Below, piece after piece: positions 26,776-31,180 of a DNA stretch of 64,000 bases; within the stretch, counting starts at the first letter, position 1; the number at the start of each line of letters is the position of its first letter. Source of the stretch: Deltaproteobacteria bacterium. GTDB taxonomy: Bacteria; Desulfobacterota; Syntrophorhabdia; Syntrophorhabdales; Syntrophorhabdaceae. The translations under genes were made by a program, and so were the position numbers. The notes beneath the pieces are model-generated. The model saw only the letters and a program-made list of their open reading frames with translations. It had not been told where the DNA came from and ran no database searches. The stretch is from the NCBI GenBank assembly GCA_029777945.1, contig JAKORG010000080.1, forward strand, positions 1-64,000, read 5' to 3'.

Positions 26776-27399
26776 ATGGGTTTAATTGGCCTTTTATTTA
26801 AAGACCCTATGGTCTTTGTGATTGTCTCGGTACCGCTTTTATATTCCATAATAATCCATGAACTTGCCCACGGCTGGGTGGCCTATAAGATGGGAGATCC
26901 TACTGCAAAATGGCTTGGCAGATTAAGCCTGAATCCCTTACGACACCTTGACCCTATTGGCACTTTGATGCTTTTCTTCTTTGGCTTTGGCTGGGCAAAA
27001 CCAGTGCCTGTAAACTTTTCCAATCTCTCCGATGAGCGAAAAGGTCTTATCTTTGTCTCCTCAGCAGGTATTGTTGCCAACATACTCCTTGCCTTTTTTT
27101 CCCTCTTTTTTTTAAGGCTCTTTTCACCTTCACCTTTTGAAGTATTATCCACAATGGTCTATTATTTTGCCAAGATCAATATTATGCTTGCTGCCTTTAA
27201 CCTTATCCCTATCCCACCCCTTGACGGCTCTAAAATACTCATGGGGTTTGCTTCGAGAAGATTACAATTAAGTCTAATGAGACTCGAACCTTATGGAATG
27301 TTTATAATTATAGGGCTGTTGTATCTCGGTATTCTTGACCCGTTGATCGCACTTTTTAAATGGGCCATCCTTTATGTAATTAATTTTTTGATTCCTTGA
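26776..27399 (+). CDS. Site-2 protease family membrane metalloprotease (M50)
   Basis: The 207-residue protein has HELAH (zinc ligands and catalytic Glu) in IIIHELAHGWVAYKMGD near residue 29, and the second metal motif NLIPIPPLDGSKIL near 150. About five transmembrane helices are visible. It is the short FeS-independent type without PDZ domain, common in thermophilic and anaerobic bacteria. Its target is unknown; related proteases cut membrane-anchored transcription regulators. Its 3' end overlaps the convergent PTS gene by 20 nt. Confidence 0.88.
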   Translation: MGLIGLLFKDPMVFVIVSVPLLYSIIIHELAHGWVAYKMGDPTAKWLGRLSLNPLRHLDPIGTLMLFFFGFGWAKPVPVNFSNLSDERKGLIFVSSAGIVANILLAFFSLFFLRLFSPSPFEVLSTMVYYFAKINIMLAAFNLIPIPPLDGSKILMGFASRRLQLSLMRLEPYGMFIIIGLLYLGILDPLIALFKWAILYVINFLIP

Positions 27400-28189
27400 A
27401 AACCGAATTGTTTGCAAGCTTTATGGCTATGCAATCGTATGAGGCAAACCCACCTTGATAATTTACTACATTCTTTCTTATTACCCGCCATCCCCCATAT
27501 TGAAAAACACCTTCTGTTTCAAGTTTTTCGACGATATTACCTGCCGTATTTAACTGGTCTGTAAGGTTAATGTTTTGAGAAAGGACAATGTGCTTCATAT
27601 TGGGGCCTGTAATAAGGGTAACGGGTTCTATAATGAGATTGGTGAGATCCTGTATTATTGTAGTTTCAATGGAAGGTTTTGTCTGCAATCTTATCATACG
27701 GGCCCTTGTATCAGGACTTGTCTTTGTTTTGGTAGATTCAATAATATCAAGAAGATAGAGTCTCACATCGTCTAAATCGTTTACTTCAGGCAACTTTTCT
27801 AATTCAGGGTAATTTTGAAGTGCCTTTGCCAGCATTGATATCTCTTTTAAATAATGATTCCGCTGGTTATCAGGAACAAGATACATCACAATAATTGAAA
27901 CAGGCTTACTATCAGGGGCACCGTAATCAATGCCAGTAGGGCTCCAGCCTACAACGCACATTAGGTCTTCATCAAAAGGCACCCTTGCATGGGGGCATGC
28001 CCACCCTTTGCCGATTGCTGTTGTAGCAGCCTGTTCCCTTTTCATCACAAGACCTACTATATCCGTTTCTGGCGGTATCTCTGGAAATGCCTCGATTATG
28101 TGGGCAAGAAACTGTAAGGCATGGGCTTTATCGTTTTCGGGTAACTCAAAAAGCCTCCCTTCCTGAAGCGCATCTAAAAGGGTATCCAT
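27380..28189 (-). CDS. PTS EIIA (PtsN/fructose-type)-domain protein with C-terminal extension
   Basis: The 269-residue protein has an N-terminal EIIA domain (about 1-150): IVGLVMKREQAATTAIGKG and the phospho-acceptor region ACPHARVPF with H67. The rest (about 160-269) does not match any domain I know and contains an IIEPVTLITGPN-like strand. It lies 2 nt downstream of mgtA on the same strand, so the two are cotranscribed. No EI, HPr or EIIBC gene is nearby, which suggests a regulatory phosphotransfer role, perhaps on the Mg2+ transporter. The latter is inference. Confidence 0.8.
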   Translation of the reverse strand: MDTLLDALQEGRLFELPENDKAHALQFLAHIIEAFPEIPPETDIVGLVMKREQAATTAIGKGWACPHARVPFDEDLMCVVGWSPTGIDYGAPDSKPVSIIVMYLVPDNQRNHYLKEISMLAKALQNYPELEKLPEVNDLDDVRLYLLDIIESTKTKTSPDTRARMIRLQTKPSIETTIIQDLTNLIIEPVTLITGPNMKHIVLSQNINLTDQLNTAGNIVEKLETEGVFQYGGWRVIRKNVVNYQGGFASYDCIAIKLANNSVFKESKN

Positions 28190-28191
28190 TT

Positions 28192-30846
28192 TTAATCACC
28201 TCCGAATCTTTTAAAAAACCAGTTTTTTACAATGCTCGTTAAAACTGCATATGCTATAAGAAATGCAATTATCCAGACCCAGTATAATGCCGGTAGGGGA
28301 ACCATACCTAAATGCACTGCAAAGGGTGAATATGGCAACCATGCACCTATTAACATGATTAAAAGGGTTGTTACAGTCATATGTAAAGATGCCCTGCTCT
28401 CTATAAAAGGTATGCGCCTTGTCCTTATGACATGGACTATCATGGTCTGGGTCAAAAGGGATTCTACAAACCACCCTGTTTGAAACAGTTTTTCAAGCAT
28501 TCCCTTTTCTACCAGTGAAATCTCTTCTGTCACAAAGGCATTGCATTTAAAAACAAACCACATAAGCCCGAATGTAAGGTAATCAAATAAAGAACTGATT
28601 GGTCCAATAAAGAGCATAAATCTTTTAATGTTTTCTACATTCCATTTAACAGGCCTACTTATGAGCTCTTCATCCACATTATCCATGGGTATGCCTGTCT
28701 GGGAAAAATCATACAAAAGGTTGTTCATGAGAATCTGCACTGGTCTCATAGGTAAAAATGGTAGAATGTAACTTGCCCCTAACACGCTGAACATGTTTCC
28801 AAAGTTTGAACTTGCAGCCATCCTTATATATTTTAACATGTTTGCAAAGATCCTTCTTCCTTCCATAATACCTTCTTCAAGGACAAGCAAACTCTTCTCA
28901 AGCAATATTATATCTGCCGATTCCTTTGCCACATCCACTGCAGAGTCTACAGAGATACCTACATCTGCTGCCTTCATCGCCGGTGCATCATTTATGCCAT
29001 CACCCATAAACCCTACTATATGACCGTTTTTTCTGAGTTCGGCAACGATCTTTTCTTTTTGAAGAGGGGTTAATTTTACAAATACATTATTTTCCTCTAT
29101 AGCCCTTGAAAATTCTTCACCAGACATCTCTGATAATTCTGAACCAGTAACAATGCGTGTTACATGAATGCCCACGTCACGACATATCTTTTCTGTGACA
29201 AACCCGTTGTCACCTGTTAATACCTTTACATCAACACCTGCCTTTTTTAGAAGCCCTATTGCCTCTGAGGCATAGACCTTTGGAGGGTCAAAAAAGGCAA
29301 TGTAACCGAGAAGTATCAAATCCTTTTCGTCATCCACAGAAAAAACCGTTTTTGTCCTTGGAAATTCCCTATAAGCAATGCCCAGCACCCTGAAACCATC
29401 GCGGTTTAACCTTTCCACCTCTTCAAAGAGGTCAAAACGAATCATATCTATGAGAGGATAAATCTCTTCCCCTATTTGATAACTACTGCAACAGGCATAT
29501 ATCTCTTCCACAGCACCTTTACAGATAAGCACATGGTCCCCTTCATAATCAACTACAATAGACATGCGTCGTCTTTGAAAATCAAAGGGTAACTCATCGA
29601 TAAGCTTACAGTTTTGTTCTGCATCGAGGTCTGCATATTCGATTACTGCCCTATCAATGAGGTTACGAAGCCCTGTCTGAAAATAACTGTTCAGGTATGC
29701 ATAATTGAGCACATCCTCGCTTGTATGACCCAAAATATCCACGTGTCTTTCTAAAACAACCTTATCCTGGGTTAAAGTCCCTGTTTTATCGGTGCAGAGT
29801 GTATCTATAGCACCAAAGTTTTGAATTGAGGGCAGGCTCTTTACAATGACCTTTTTCTTTGCCATATTCAATGCGCCCTTTGCCAGATTTACCGTTACAA
29901 TCGTAGGCAACATCTCTGGGGTTAATCCCACGGCTACGGAAAGACCAAATAAAAGGGCATCTACCCAGTTTCCTTTTGTAAACCCCACTATAAAAAATAC
30001 GATAAACACCATAACAACCATAAATCTGACCATGAGCCATGTAAACGAACGAATGCCTTTGTCAAAACTCGTTTCTTCCCGGTCTTCTGATAGTCGCTCT
30101 GCTATGGCACCGAAAAGGGTTCTCTCTCCAGTATTTACAACAAGACCCCTTGCTACACCACTTGTAACAGAGGTGCCCAGAAAACATGCATTAGGTAGCT
30201 CTAAGGCCGATTGCACCGGTTCTGTGGTATTTACTGCAGACTTTTCTAAAGGCAAGGATTCTCCTGTTAAAGCCGATTCACTGACAAAAAAGTCTTTGGC
30301 AGATATGATTCTCAAATCAGCTGGTATAACAGAACCCGTTTGGAGAATCACAATATCTCCTGGGACTATCTCTGAAATCTTTACCTCTTTCCCCTTCCCA
30401 TCCCTTATAACATAAGACCTTGATTGAACTCGCTTTCCCAGGGCTTCCACTGCCTTACTGGAGCGCTTATCAAGAATATAGGACAACCCTATACTCAAAA
30501 AGATCATTGCACTTACTATCCCTGTGGATTTTATTTCGCCTATTAATGCCGAAACAACGGCAATAATAAGGAGCTGAATTATAAGTGGGCTTTTGATTCT
30601 TCTATAGATGTCGGCCCAGAAACCCAAACGCCTTAAATGTGAAAGTTCATTAGGGCCGTATTCATCTAATCTCTCCTCAGCCTCTTTCTCATTTAATCCC
30701 TGAAATGAGCTATTAAGTGCAAAGAGGGCACTATTTATAGGTATTGAACAGAGTTCTATTAATCTCCGTTCGTGCTCACTCATTAATCTTTGAGAGATTA
30801 GCTGAGCCCTCACATCTGAAATTTTTGAAAAAAAACCTCTATTCAT
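28192..30846 (-). CDS. mgtA: Magnesium-translocating P-type ATPase
   Basis: The 884-residue P3B-type ATPase imports Mg2+. An N-terminal cytoplasmic segment, then PGDIVILQTGSVIPADLRI and LTGESLPLEK (A domain), phosphorylation site CTDKTGTLTQ, DPPKVYASEA, VKVLTGDN, MGDGINDAPAMKAADVGISV (hinge) and a C-terminal membrane block with the family's NNLLYDFSQ are present. The length is close to MgtA/MgtB (about 900). It lies behind a roughly 300-nt leader with a short ORF and hairpin, and is followed 2 nt later by the EIIA-domain gene. Confidence 0.95.
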   Translation of the reverse strand: MNRGFFSKISDVRAQLISQRLMSEHERRLIELCSIPINSALFALNSSFQGLNEKEAEERLDEYGPNELSHLRRLGFWADIYRRIKSPLIIQLLIIAVVSALIGEIKSTGIVSAMIFLSIGLSYILDKRSSKAVEALGKRVQSRSYVIRDGKGKEVKISEIVPGDIVILQTGSVIPADLRIISAKDFFVSESALTGESLPLEKSAVNTTEPVQSALELPNACFLGTSVTSGVARGLVVNTGERTLFGAIAERLSEDREETSFDKGIRSFTWLMVRFMVVMVFIVFFIVGFTKGNWVDALLFGLSVAVGLTPEMLPTIVTVNLAKGALNMAKKKVIVKSLPSIQNFGAIDTLCTDKTGTLTQDKVVLERHVDILGHTSEDVLNYAYLNSYFQTGLRNLIDRAVIEYADLDAEQNCKLIDELPFDFQRRRMSIVVDYEGDHVLICKGAVEEIYACCSSYQIGEEIYPLIDMIRFDLFEEVERLNRDGFRVLGIAYREFPRTKTVFSVDDEKDLILLGYIAFFDPPKVYASEAIGLLKKAGVDVKVLTGDNGFVTEKICRDVGIHVTRIVTGSELSEMSGEEFSRAIEENNVFVKLTPLQKEKIVAELRKNGHIVGFMGDGINDAPAMKAADVGISVDSAVDVAKESADIILLEKSLLVLEEGIMEGRRIFANMLKYIRMAASSNFGNMFSVLGASYILPFLPMRPVQILMNNLLYDFSQTGIPMDNVDEELISRPVKWNVENIKRFMLFIGPISSLFDYLTFGLMWFVFKCNAFVTEEISLVEKGMLEKLFQTGWFVESLLTQTMIVHVIRTRRIPFIESRASLHMTVTTLLIMLIGAWLPYSPFAVHLGMVPLPALYWVWIIAFLIAYAVLTSIVKNWFFKRFGGD

Positions 30847-31145
30847 AAGAACTTTTTACAGGTCTTAATTATTAAATTCAGTAAATAAAATTTTAAAATT
30901 AAAAAAGTCTTTGTGCTAATGGTTCACCTCTTTTTTGGTCATGGGATGGCAAAGGGACCTGAGGTGAACCAGTTGGCGAAATAAGAGGAAAATTTCGGCT
31001 CAGCTCACAGGCCTTTTTGCCTCCATGAGCGATCCAGGGTCATAAATCTCTTCAGAAGGGTGCTCCTGGCCTTTCATCGATGAACCTTGACTGCCATCAG
31101 AGTCGCCCATAAAAATCCTCCCTTTTATGATAATCTCTTATCTTC
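30847..31145 (-). promoter_or_regulatory. Structured 5' leader of mgtA
   Basis: This 299-nt stretch is between the predicted start (about 31145) and the mgtA ATG. It holds a 36-codon ORF (31000-31110), then a long-range perfect 10-bp pair, GGTTCACCTC (30921-30930) with GAGGTGAACC (30961-30970). Nested inside is a GGTC/GACC pair. A T-run on the minus strand (about 30901-30906) follows after a gap. Taken together it resembles an attenuation-type leader. I do not recognise the M-box (Mg2+ riboswitch) core in it. The structure is seen directly; the regulatory role is inferred. Confidence 0.6.
31000..31110 (-). CDS. Candidate leader peptide of mgtA (36 aa)
   Basis: ATG at 31110 is preceded by GGGAGG (31117-31122) with 6-nt spacing, one of the best ribosome sites in the window. 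The product has 36 residues, is hydrophilic, lacks hydrophobic helices, and contains an acidic-plus-proline stretch SEEIYDPG and ends RPVS. In Salmonella, MgtL leader translation with acidic/proline codons destabilises ribosomes at low Mg2+ and controls mgtA. The present ORF lies in the equivalent position, but is not homologous as far as I can see. Confidence 0.5.
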   Translation of the reverse strand: MGDSDGSQGSSMKGQEHPSEEIYDPGSLMEAKRPVS

Positions 31146-31151
31146 GTTTAA

Positions 31152-31180
31152 GTTATATACCTATAATATTTATCAGTCAA
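31152..31180 (-). promoter_or_regulatory. Sigma-70 promoter of mgtA operon
   Basis: On the minus strand TTGACT (31175-31180) and TATAAC (31152-31157) are separated by exactly 17 nt, each matching five of six consensus bases. It predicts a transcript start near 31145, about 35 nt before the leader ORF. Confidence 0.7.

Follow-up and report, generated by a model that had tools for sequence, protein, structure and literature searches.

How is the Mg2+ transporter gene mgtA regulated in a member of the Syntrophorhabdaceae in which no M-box precedes it? The question is raised by a stretch of 64,000 nucleotides (referred to here as the window) from contig JAKORG010000080.1 of GenBank assembly GCA_029777945.1. 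An earlier note, made from the letters of the sequence alone, had read the region before mgtA as a leader peptide and a long-range pairing that follow the logic of the enterobacterial mgtL leader without sharing its sequence. Searches with Rfam agree with what the note had said to be missing. They gave no match at gathering in the window, no plausible match below gathering in the leader (E <= 10), and no explanatory match in ten related loci (E <= 0.1); the M-box (ykoK) model in particular found nothing in the window, the leader, or the ten related loci, and in the same three sets there was no covariance match to a known riboswitch. Nor did Mg_sensor, the Rfam model for mgtA leaders of enterobacteria, give a match.

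The mgtA locus and its leader ORF

The downstream gene had been correctly recognized as mgtA, scoring 1091 bits against a cut-off of 611 in a profile search with TIGR01524, and its product is 90% identical to that of the closest named record, JAOAFK010000080 (Syntrophorhabdaceae). The promoter proposed earlier can be read directly on the minus strand (Table 1), and its -10 TATAAC is kept in the sister genome G001 together with a TTGAC-type -35; an automatic promoter scan passes over TATAAC because it requires T as the final -10 base. The PTS-IIA/PtsN-like gene that follows mgtA is likely co-transcribed with it. Such a neighbor stands behind mgtA in at least 22 of the 24 mgtA loci checked, and this conserved operon suggests post-translational control of the transporter. 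The PTS-IIA/PtsN-like protein carries an extra C-terminal domain. Upstream of the leader lies a TRAP-transporter gene, not mgtC. The genome of the window (G000; other G numbers denote further genomes, and L numbers loci) yielded no MgtE match, and none of its proteins scored above the TIGR03719 cut-off of 807 for EttA (best 79 bits; genome 97% complete). IRD itself does not need EttA.

Table 1. Coordinates of the leader elements and adjoining genes within the window
Feature	Position	Strand	Basis
Promoter: -35 TTGACT 31180-31175, 17-nt spacer, -10 TATAAC 31157-31152	31152..31180	-	Direct reading
Shine-Dalgarno sequence of ORF1, GGGAGG	31117..31122	-	Direct reading; similar motif precedes ORF1 in 29/31 representative leaders
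ORF1, 36-codon leader peptide MGDSDGSQGSSMKGQEHPSEEIYDPGSLMEAKRPVS	31000..31110	-	Homologues upstream of mgtA, mgtE, and NRMT genes
Asp3 and Asp5 (DSD), N-terminal acidic codons, proposed ribosome-destabilizing site	31096..31104	-	Most conserved peptide motif
Second acidic/Pro cluster SEEIYDPG, codons 19-26	31033..31056	-	Peptide comparison
Possible helix P0 in ORF1 (GCTCA/TGAGC), beside or overlapping element 1	31003..31030	-	
Element 1, across the ORF1 stop codon, GTGAGCTGAGCCGA; can pair with hairpin 5' arm 30972-30960	30995..31008	-	
Element 2, anti-Shine-Dalgarno arm GGTTCACCTC	30961..30970	-	Alignment and covariation
Inner stem GGTC 30959-30956/GACC 30940-30937 and apical loop	30937..30959	-	Covariation
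Element 3, sequestered Shine-Dalgarno sequence GAGGTGAACC	30921..30930	-	Covariation; model R1 55.5 bits
Possible coupling ORF2, 25 codons, AUU-opened (start inferred), ATGA overlap with mgtA	30843..30920	-	Comparison
mgtA, Mg2+-translocating P-type ATPase, 884 aa, regulated gene; ATG at 30846	28192..30846	-	TIGR01524
PTS-IIA/PtsN-like gene, beginning 2 nt 3' of mgtA	27380..28189	-	

ORF1, its ribosome site, and the stretch SEEIYDPG are all present as the note had described them. The note had also named conservation of the reading frame in related genomes as a check on its proposal, and the frame proved to be kept in 36 of 36 homologous leaders. This set was gathered from oriented mgtA loci and wider searches, with 31 of its members used as representatives. 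Upstream of mgtA in relatives, ORF1 has matches with E-values of 1e-10, 6e-8, 8e-8, and 0.005. Its length ranges from about 30 to 62 codons, mostly 36-46, and stops fall within 30 codons in the +1 and +2 frames of 35/36 and 34/36 leaders, respectively. Pooled pS is 0.28 against a pN of 0.16, with pairwise dN/dS between 0.20 and 0.88; as judged from these values the excess of silent change is moderate, and RNA constraints act on the same sequence. The stop codon itself varies among the representatives (TAG 14, TGA 12, TAA 5). Together, these comparisons support ORF1 as a conserved, translated-looking leader ORF.

The peptide is best conserved at its start, M-x-[DEN]-[SP]-D-G-S, with a DSDG-like motif in most leaders; position 3 or 5 is acidic in 30/31 representatives. 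The position of Asp3 and Asp5 fits that of the destabilizing acidic codons of mgtL and mgtQ (PMC11282234, PMC8092293). Further along, 21/31 representatives have either a pair of acidic residues or a cluster of acidic residues and proline within codons 11-32, in many cases EE..DPG; the EE..DPG cluster is absent from several mgtE leaders, which counts against a drop-off model.

Some leaders may fold further within ORF1. At the place of P0, the helix GAUCGC:GCGGUY of relatives reaches a Fisher p of 0.002 with a swap test that is not significant, and the helix is unsupported in G000, so P0 is suggestive only. A hairpin over ORF1 codons 6-11, GGCAGU-CAYA-GUUGCC, can be seen in G023, G349, G401, G316, G363, G366, and others, with compensated forms (GGCUG..CAGCC) in G580 and G297. 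This N-terminal hairpin occurs in 14/28 leaders against 6.2 expected and is supported in some lineages, with none in the window.

Two predicted, mutually exclusive pairings in the leader RNA

The 10-bp pairing between GGTTCACCTC and GAGGTGAACC exists exactly as noted earlier, yet it is not long-range: it closes a local hairpin whose 30-nt loop contains a further, inner stem (GGTC/GACC). The alignment of seventeen mgtA leaders reads GGTTCACCTC-n-GGCCGC...GCGGCC-A-rich-GAGGTGAACC. In this hairpin, formed by elements 2 and 3 (2:3), 92% of cells are paired; sliding the partner lowers this to 34-47%. Of its 17 pairs, 9 have changed on both sides, a number equaled by 1 of 500 shuffles. The inner stem shows changes on both sides in 4/6 pairs across the family. 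Conservation of the pairing in relatives, which the note had also named as a check, is thus evident as compensatory change. Folded alone, the leader of G000 is slightly better than its shuffles (z -1.6), and single-sequence folding at this z does not prove a structure; the beyond-chance evidence for the leader comes from comparison, that is, from ORF1 homologues in relatives and compensatory change in the hairpin. The hairpin begins 5-13 nt after the ORF1 stop in most leaders. A scan of the locus for intrinsic terminators found none.

The hairpin's 5' arm, together with the flank upstream of it, has a second possible partner (1:2): in most leaders the last ORF1 codons, and in G000, G143, and G244 the stop-codon region. 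Examples from other genomes are UGAACUGAUU:AAUCGGUUCA (G012), UGAAUCGGUU:AGCCGGUUCA (G020), and GGUGAACUG:CCGGUUCACC (G290). When the ORF1 end and element 2 were aligned with MAFFT, RNAalifold yielded no consensus; the reason is that element 1 moves along with the stop codon, staying close to it as the distance from stop to hairpin varies. The 1:2 pairing was tested by per-sequence partition functions against two null models. Across 30 leaders, its mean pairing probability is 0.74; dinucleotide shuffles reach 0.44 and real coding windows 0.37. Fisher's method gives about 1e-8 and paired Wilcoxon tests 1e-7 and 2e-8, combined p-values that are inflated by relatedness among the leaders. Cognate 1:2 duplexes are stronger than swapped ones (p 0.013), and in G000 alone the values of 0.57 versus 0.32 are not significant (p 0.19-0.21). 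The combined statistics support the 1:2 pairing, short of proof.

The full G000 leader is computed to favor 2:3 (P 0.63) over 1:2 (P 0.34); as long as element 3 is still untranscribed, P(1:2) is 0.90. The full-length fold is dominated by 2:3 in roughly one leader in three, those of G349, G363, G270, and G366 among them, and 1:2 would need to act kinetically there. We predict two mutually exclusive folds, the one indicated by covariation (2:3) and the other by combined statistics (1:2). In the proposed switch, the 10-bp pair of the earlier note would be the OFF hairpin; the note had missed the competing pairing with the ORF1 end.

The 3' arm of the hairpin is a strong Shine-Dalgarno sequence, and what follows it differs among genomes. 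An ATG, GTG, or TTG lies within a few nucleotides 3' of element 3 in 25/31 representatives, and this start is that of mgtE itself, of mgtA itself (G297, G143, G580, and their kin), or of a short ORF2. In eight genomes (G000, G023, G463, G325, G096, G290, G598, and G582) the ORF2 stop and the mgtA start share the four bases ATGA, and in all of these except G000 such an ORF2 has a normal start codon. No standard start codon follows the Shine-Dalgarno sequence in G000, G001, G012, and G022; G020 has only a TTG that opens 5 codons. The next codon in G000 is AUU (ATT in the DNA), so the final link between hairpin and mgtA is weaker there than in relatives. In the G000 lineage, mgtA has a weak site of its own further downstream. 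Release of the Shine-Dalgarno sequence may thus not be the whole mechanism in this lineage, and mgtA in G000, G001, G012, and G022 could also be controlled via Rho or through its own weak site.

The 90-codon ORF2 of G023, which stands between leader and mgtA and ends in ATGA, resembles by eye the N-terminus of MgtE (KNKNPLFVPELREILASGD..., compared with the MgtE of G363). Pfam gave no significant domain for this ORF2. The resemblance suggests that this ORF2 is a remnant of mgtE and that mgtA has moved in behind what was once an mgtE leader.

Distribution ahead of Mg2+ transporter genes

A covariance model built from mgtA leaders only was used to scan 395 genomes of the phylum. It found 25 places at E <= 1e-6, every one of them before a Mg2+ transporter gene, one gene being broken: 14 precede mgtA, 10 precede mgtE, and 1 precedes a broken NRAMP-like (NRMT) gene in G362. 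The mgtE leaders belong to G363, G080, G370, G123, G380, G109, G147, G366, G081, and G270; the mgtE gene of G363 was confirmed by profile (TIGR00400, E 2.5e-96), and the other nine assignments were read from clear sequence similarity. A second leader copy in G362 (E 1e-4) precedes an intact, full-length NRAMP-like gene. The best PDB match of the NRAMP-like protein is 7qia (EleNRMT; E 9e-67, the next being 3e-16), and the protein shows DxxG-TxxA/T, the binding-site motif of NRMTs (PMC8806188). The two leader copies (L150:1412-2135 and L151:2219-367) occur with a conserved 66-aa ORF2, MKLKKPTPKSTLSPVFFETAAFLLAAFFPTARGPVLVLQGLKILAVWASGAQHSGNRSSPSSTASS, before the NRMT gene, and one of the NRMT copies breaks off after some 60 codons.

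Genes of three unrelated importer families, MgtA, MgtE, and NRMT, are preceded by the ORF1-hairpin unit. Its presence before mgtE and NRMT genes makes the link to Mg2+ stronger than the author of the earlier note could know. The unit is a patchy family within one phylum and not a single-locus curiosity; in Geomonas and most mgtA loci of non-relatives (L077-L103) the hairpin was not found.

Other mgtA orthologues of the same clade have acidic leaders of unrelated sequence. An acidic/Pro ORF beginning MEDDPGGQ stands upstream of mgtA in L014, L019, and L013, and another of the form MxxDxQ[EP]PP...D...WKxxR in L052, L054, L056, and L063-L065, each with its own hairpin; these two types may have arisen independently as variants of the same sensor. 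In L016, L017, and L018, leaders that begin MGESENSEN or MGEQDASE precede a hairpin that adjoins the mgtA ATG with its 3' arm, GTGGGTC or GTGAGTC. A copy of this arm lies near the ORF end, the same layout in a different sequence.

Proposed control and its relation to known systems

We propose that the leader controls Mg2+ importer genes as a translational attenuator, a reading to which we assign a probability of roughly 0.6. Comparison between genomes shows that ORF1 is coding, that the 2:3 hairpin forms a conserved pairing, that relatives have a start codon behind the masked Shine-Dalgarno sequence, and that the association is with Mg2+ transporter genes only. In our model, a ribosome would translate ORF1 directly behind RNA polymerase. 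At high Mg2+ it would pass the acidic and proline codons, reach the ORF1 stop, and cover element 1, whereupon element 2 would pair with element 3, hiding the Shine-Dalgarno sequence and keeping the transporter off. At low Mg2+, the nascent DSD and SEEIYDPG peptide would destabilize the ribosome and cause early drop-off, and the bare element 1 would capture element 2 before element 3 is transcribed, leaving the Shine-Dalgarno sequence open. Initiation would then be released at the transporter itself (mgtE and, in some species, mgtA) or at an ORF2 that overlaps the mgtA start by ATGA, presumably from AUU in G000. The converse idea, that a ribosome terminating at ORF1 opens the hairpin and activates expression, we rejected as the main one: it has the wrong sign for an importer, and, given the size of ribosome footprints, the stop-to-arm spacing in most leaders would mask element 1 and leave the anti-Shine-Dalgarno bases free.

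The drop-off step and its dependence on Mg2+ are taken by analogy from experiments on MgtL and MgtQ (PMC11282234, PMC8092293, PMC11552253). Early acidic codons in mgtL and mgtQ lead to ribosome drop-off, which favors transporter expression at low Mg2+ (PMC11282234, PMC8092293). The destabilization is opposed by Mg2+ and by bL31, and the acidic residues must fall within about the first 30 residues (PMC11282234, PMC8092293, PMC11552253).

Several alternatives share part of this evidence. Control could instead pass through Rho, as in Salmonella mgtL, with completed translation of ORF1 exposing a C-rich, G-poor stretch that aborted translation folds away. The 69 nt between ORF1 and element 3 contain 23 C and 9 G, no standard mgtA start lies behind the Shine-Dalgarno arm in the G000 lineage, and both mgtL and corL of Salmonella work via Rho (PMC11552253). 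We nevertheless consider Rho unlikely as the main route, because a start follows directly after element 3 in most representatives and is often that of mgtE or mgtA, which argues for control of initiation; an intrinsic terminator was not found either. Quite unlikely, in our estimation, is a new riboswitch in which the RNA itself binds Mg2+ and ORF1 is incidental or serves only to load ribosomes. Strong conservation of the hairpin in sequence and structure, the additional helices inside ORF1 in some lineages, and the equally broad range of transporter classes served by M-box riboswitches (PMC4072509) would all fit such an RNA. However, masking of the Shine-Dalgarno sequence already explains the conservation of the hairpin, no large aptamer-like conserved core is seen in the leader and Rfam offers no match, and ORF1 is constrained at the amino-acid level, with its frame kept in all leaders and its acidic codons at fixed places.

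The remaining alternatives retain a function for ORF1. It might sense a signal other than Mg2+ through translation speed, such as proline, charged-tRNA supply, or ribosome stress, and proline is indeed found in most peptides; the Salmonella leaders mgtP and mgtM answer to charged tRNA-Pro and ATP, respectively (PMC8092293). The acidic residues are better conserved than proline, however, no run of codons for one amino acid occurs, and all 25 strong places lie before Mg2+ transporter genes, and we regard this reading as very unlikely. Least likely, in our view, is that the ORF1 product is a small protein acting in trans, for example on the transporter, next to a hairpin that is an ordinary site of translation control or processing. 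Conservation of the peptide over many families and the precedent of MgtR and MgtU, small regulatory peptides of Salmonella Mg2+ transporters (PMC8092293), speak for it, but the peptide is short, acidic, and mostly without an obvious membrane segment, its C-terminal half is highly variable, and a trans-acting product would need neither a stop held near the hairpin nor an element 1 at that stop.

Attenuation of translation thus remains our preferred reading, and it has a broader form. We see even odds that the unit constitutes a new family of Mg2+-sensing leader peptides, independent of the enterobacterial one, in which the DSDG/EEDDPG peptide is the sensor and a portable cassette of ORF1 and anti-Shine-Dalgarno hairpin has moved among MgtA, MgtE, and NRMT genes. 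Within the literature we compared, leader peptides of the mgtL/mgtQ type are reported for enterobacteria and close kin only (PMC11282234, PMC8092293, PMC11552253). A search of the open-access literature brought up no description of an mgtE leader peptide of the ORF1 kind. If the broader form is true, ribosome instability at low Mg2+ would be a general sensor at which evolution has arrived repeatedly, and the unrelated acidic leaders of the same transporter clade (MEDDPGGQ, MxxDxQEPP, and MGESENSE) would make destabilization a recurrent, general means of sensing Mg2+. The cassette is compact, has clear start, stop, and stem signatures and its own covariance model, and lends itself to reporter assays in E. 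coli. Just as the M-box drew attention to NrmT, it could help to find Mg2+ transporters that are still unannotated in uncultured bacteria.

Among known systems, some resemble the unit only in outline. In trp-type attenuators, a ribosome translating the leader likewise chooses between two exclusive helices, with a terminator and tryptophan codons in place of the masked Shine-Dalgarno sequence and acidic codons found here. The M-box is also a single cis element that serves unrelated families (corA, mgtE, mgtA, and NrmT), but it is a large aptamer RNA that senses Mg2+ directly and acts mostly via a terminator (PMC4072509). The corL leader of corA likewise combines uORF control of a Mg2+ transporter with alternative folds; it differs in its transporter, its single conserved proline, and its dependence on Rho, and we saw no relation in sequence (PMC11552253).

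The closest systems are mgtL and mgtQ. Like ORF1, mgtL has early acidic and proline codons (EPDP in MgtL; PMC11282234), and, according to Chadani 2017 and Gall 2016 as cited in PMC11552253, full translation of mgtL turns expression off, aborted translation turns it on, and the RNA has two exclusive folds, as in our model, whereas its output in Salmonella runs through Rho and that of the ORF1 unit is likely the Shine-Dalgarno hairpin (PMC11552253). The mgtL logic of the earlier note accordingly holds for the acidic/Pro leader ORF and the two exclusive predicted folds, and not for the output, which is likely Shine-Dalgarno release and not Rho-type. We saw no homology to mgtL in peptide or RNA, and the ORF1 unit also serves mgtE and NRMT genes. 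In mgtQ-mgtB of Salmonella (Choi et al. 2021, PMC8092293), a short ORF likewise has early acidic codons, Asp2 and Glu5, that abort translation, and exclusive stem-loops sequester or release the Shine-Dalgarno sequence of a Mg2+ transporter gene, again giving translational control. However, mgtQ has 8 codons and lies between mgtC and mgtB, whereas ORF1 has about 36-46 codons and lies in a 5' leader, and expression of mgtB drops when mgtQ is untranslated, whereas non-translation of ORF1 is predicted to leave the transporter on (PMC8092293). The ORF1 unit is also unrelated to mgtQ in sequence, occurs in a different phylum, and has its element 1 at the end of ORF1. Because there is no sequence match and phylum, position, and size differ, the unit belongs to neither system; by analogy, it would work most like mgtQ-mgtB and, in its predicted sign, like mgtL.
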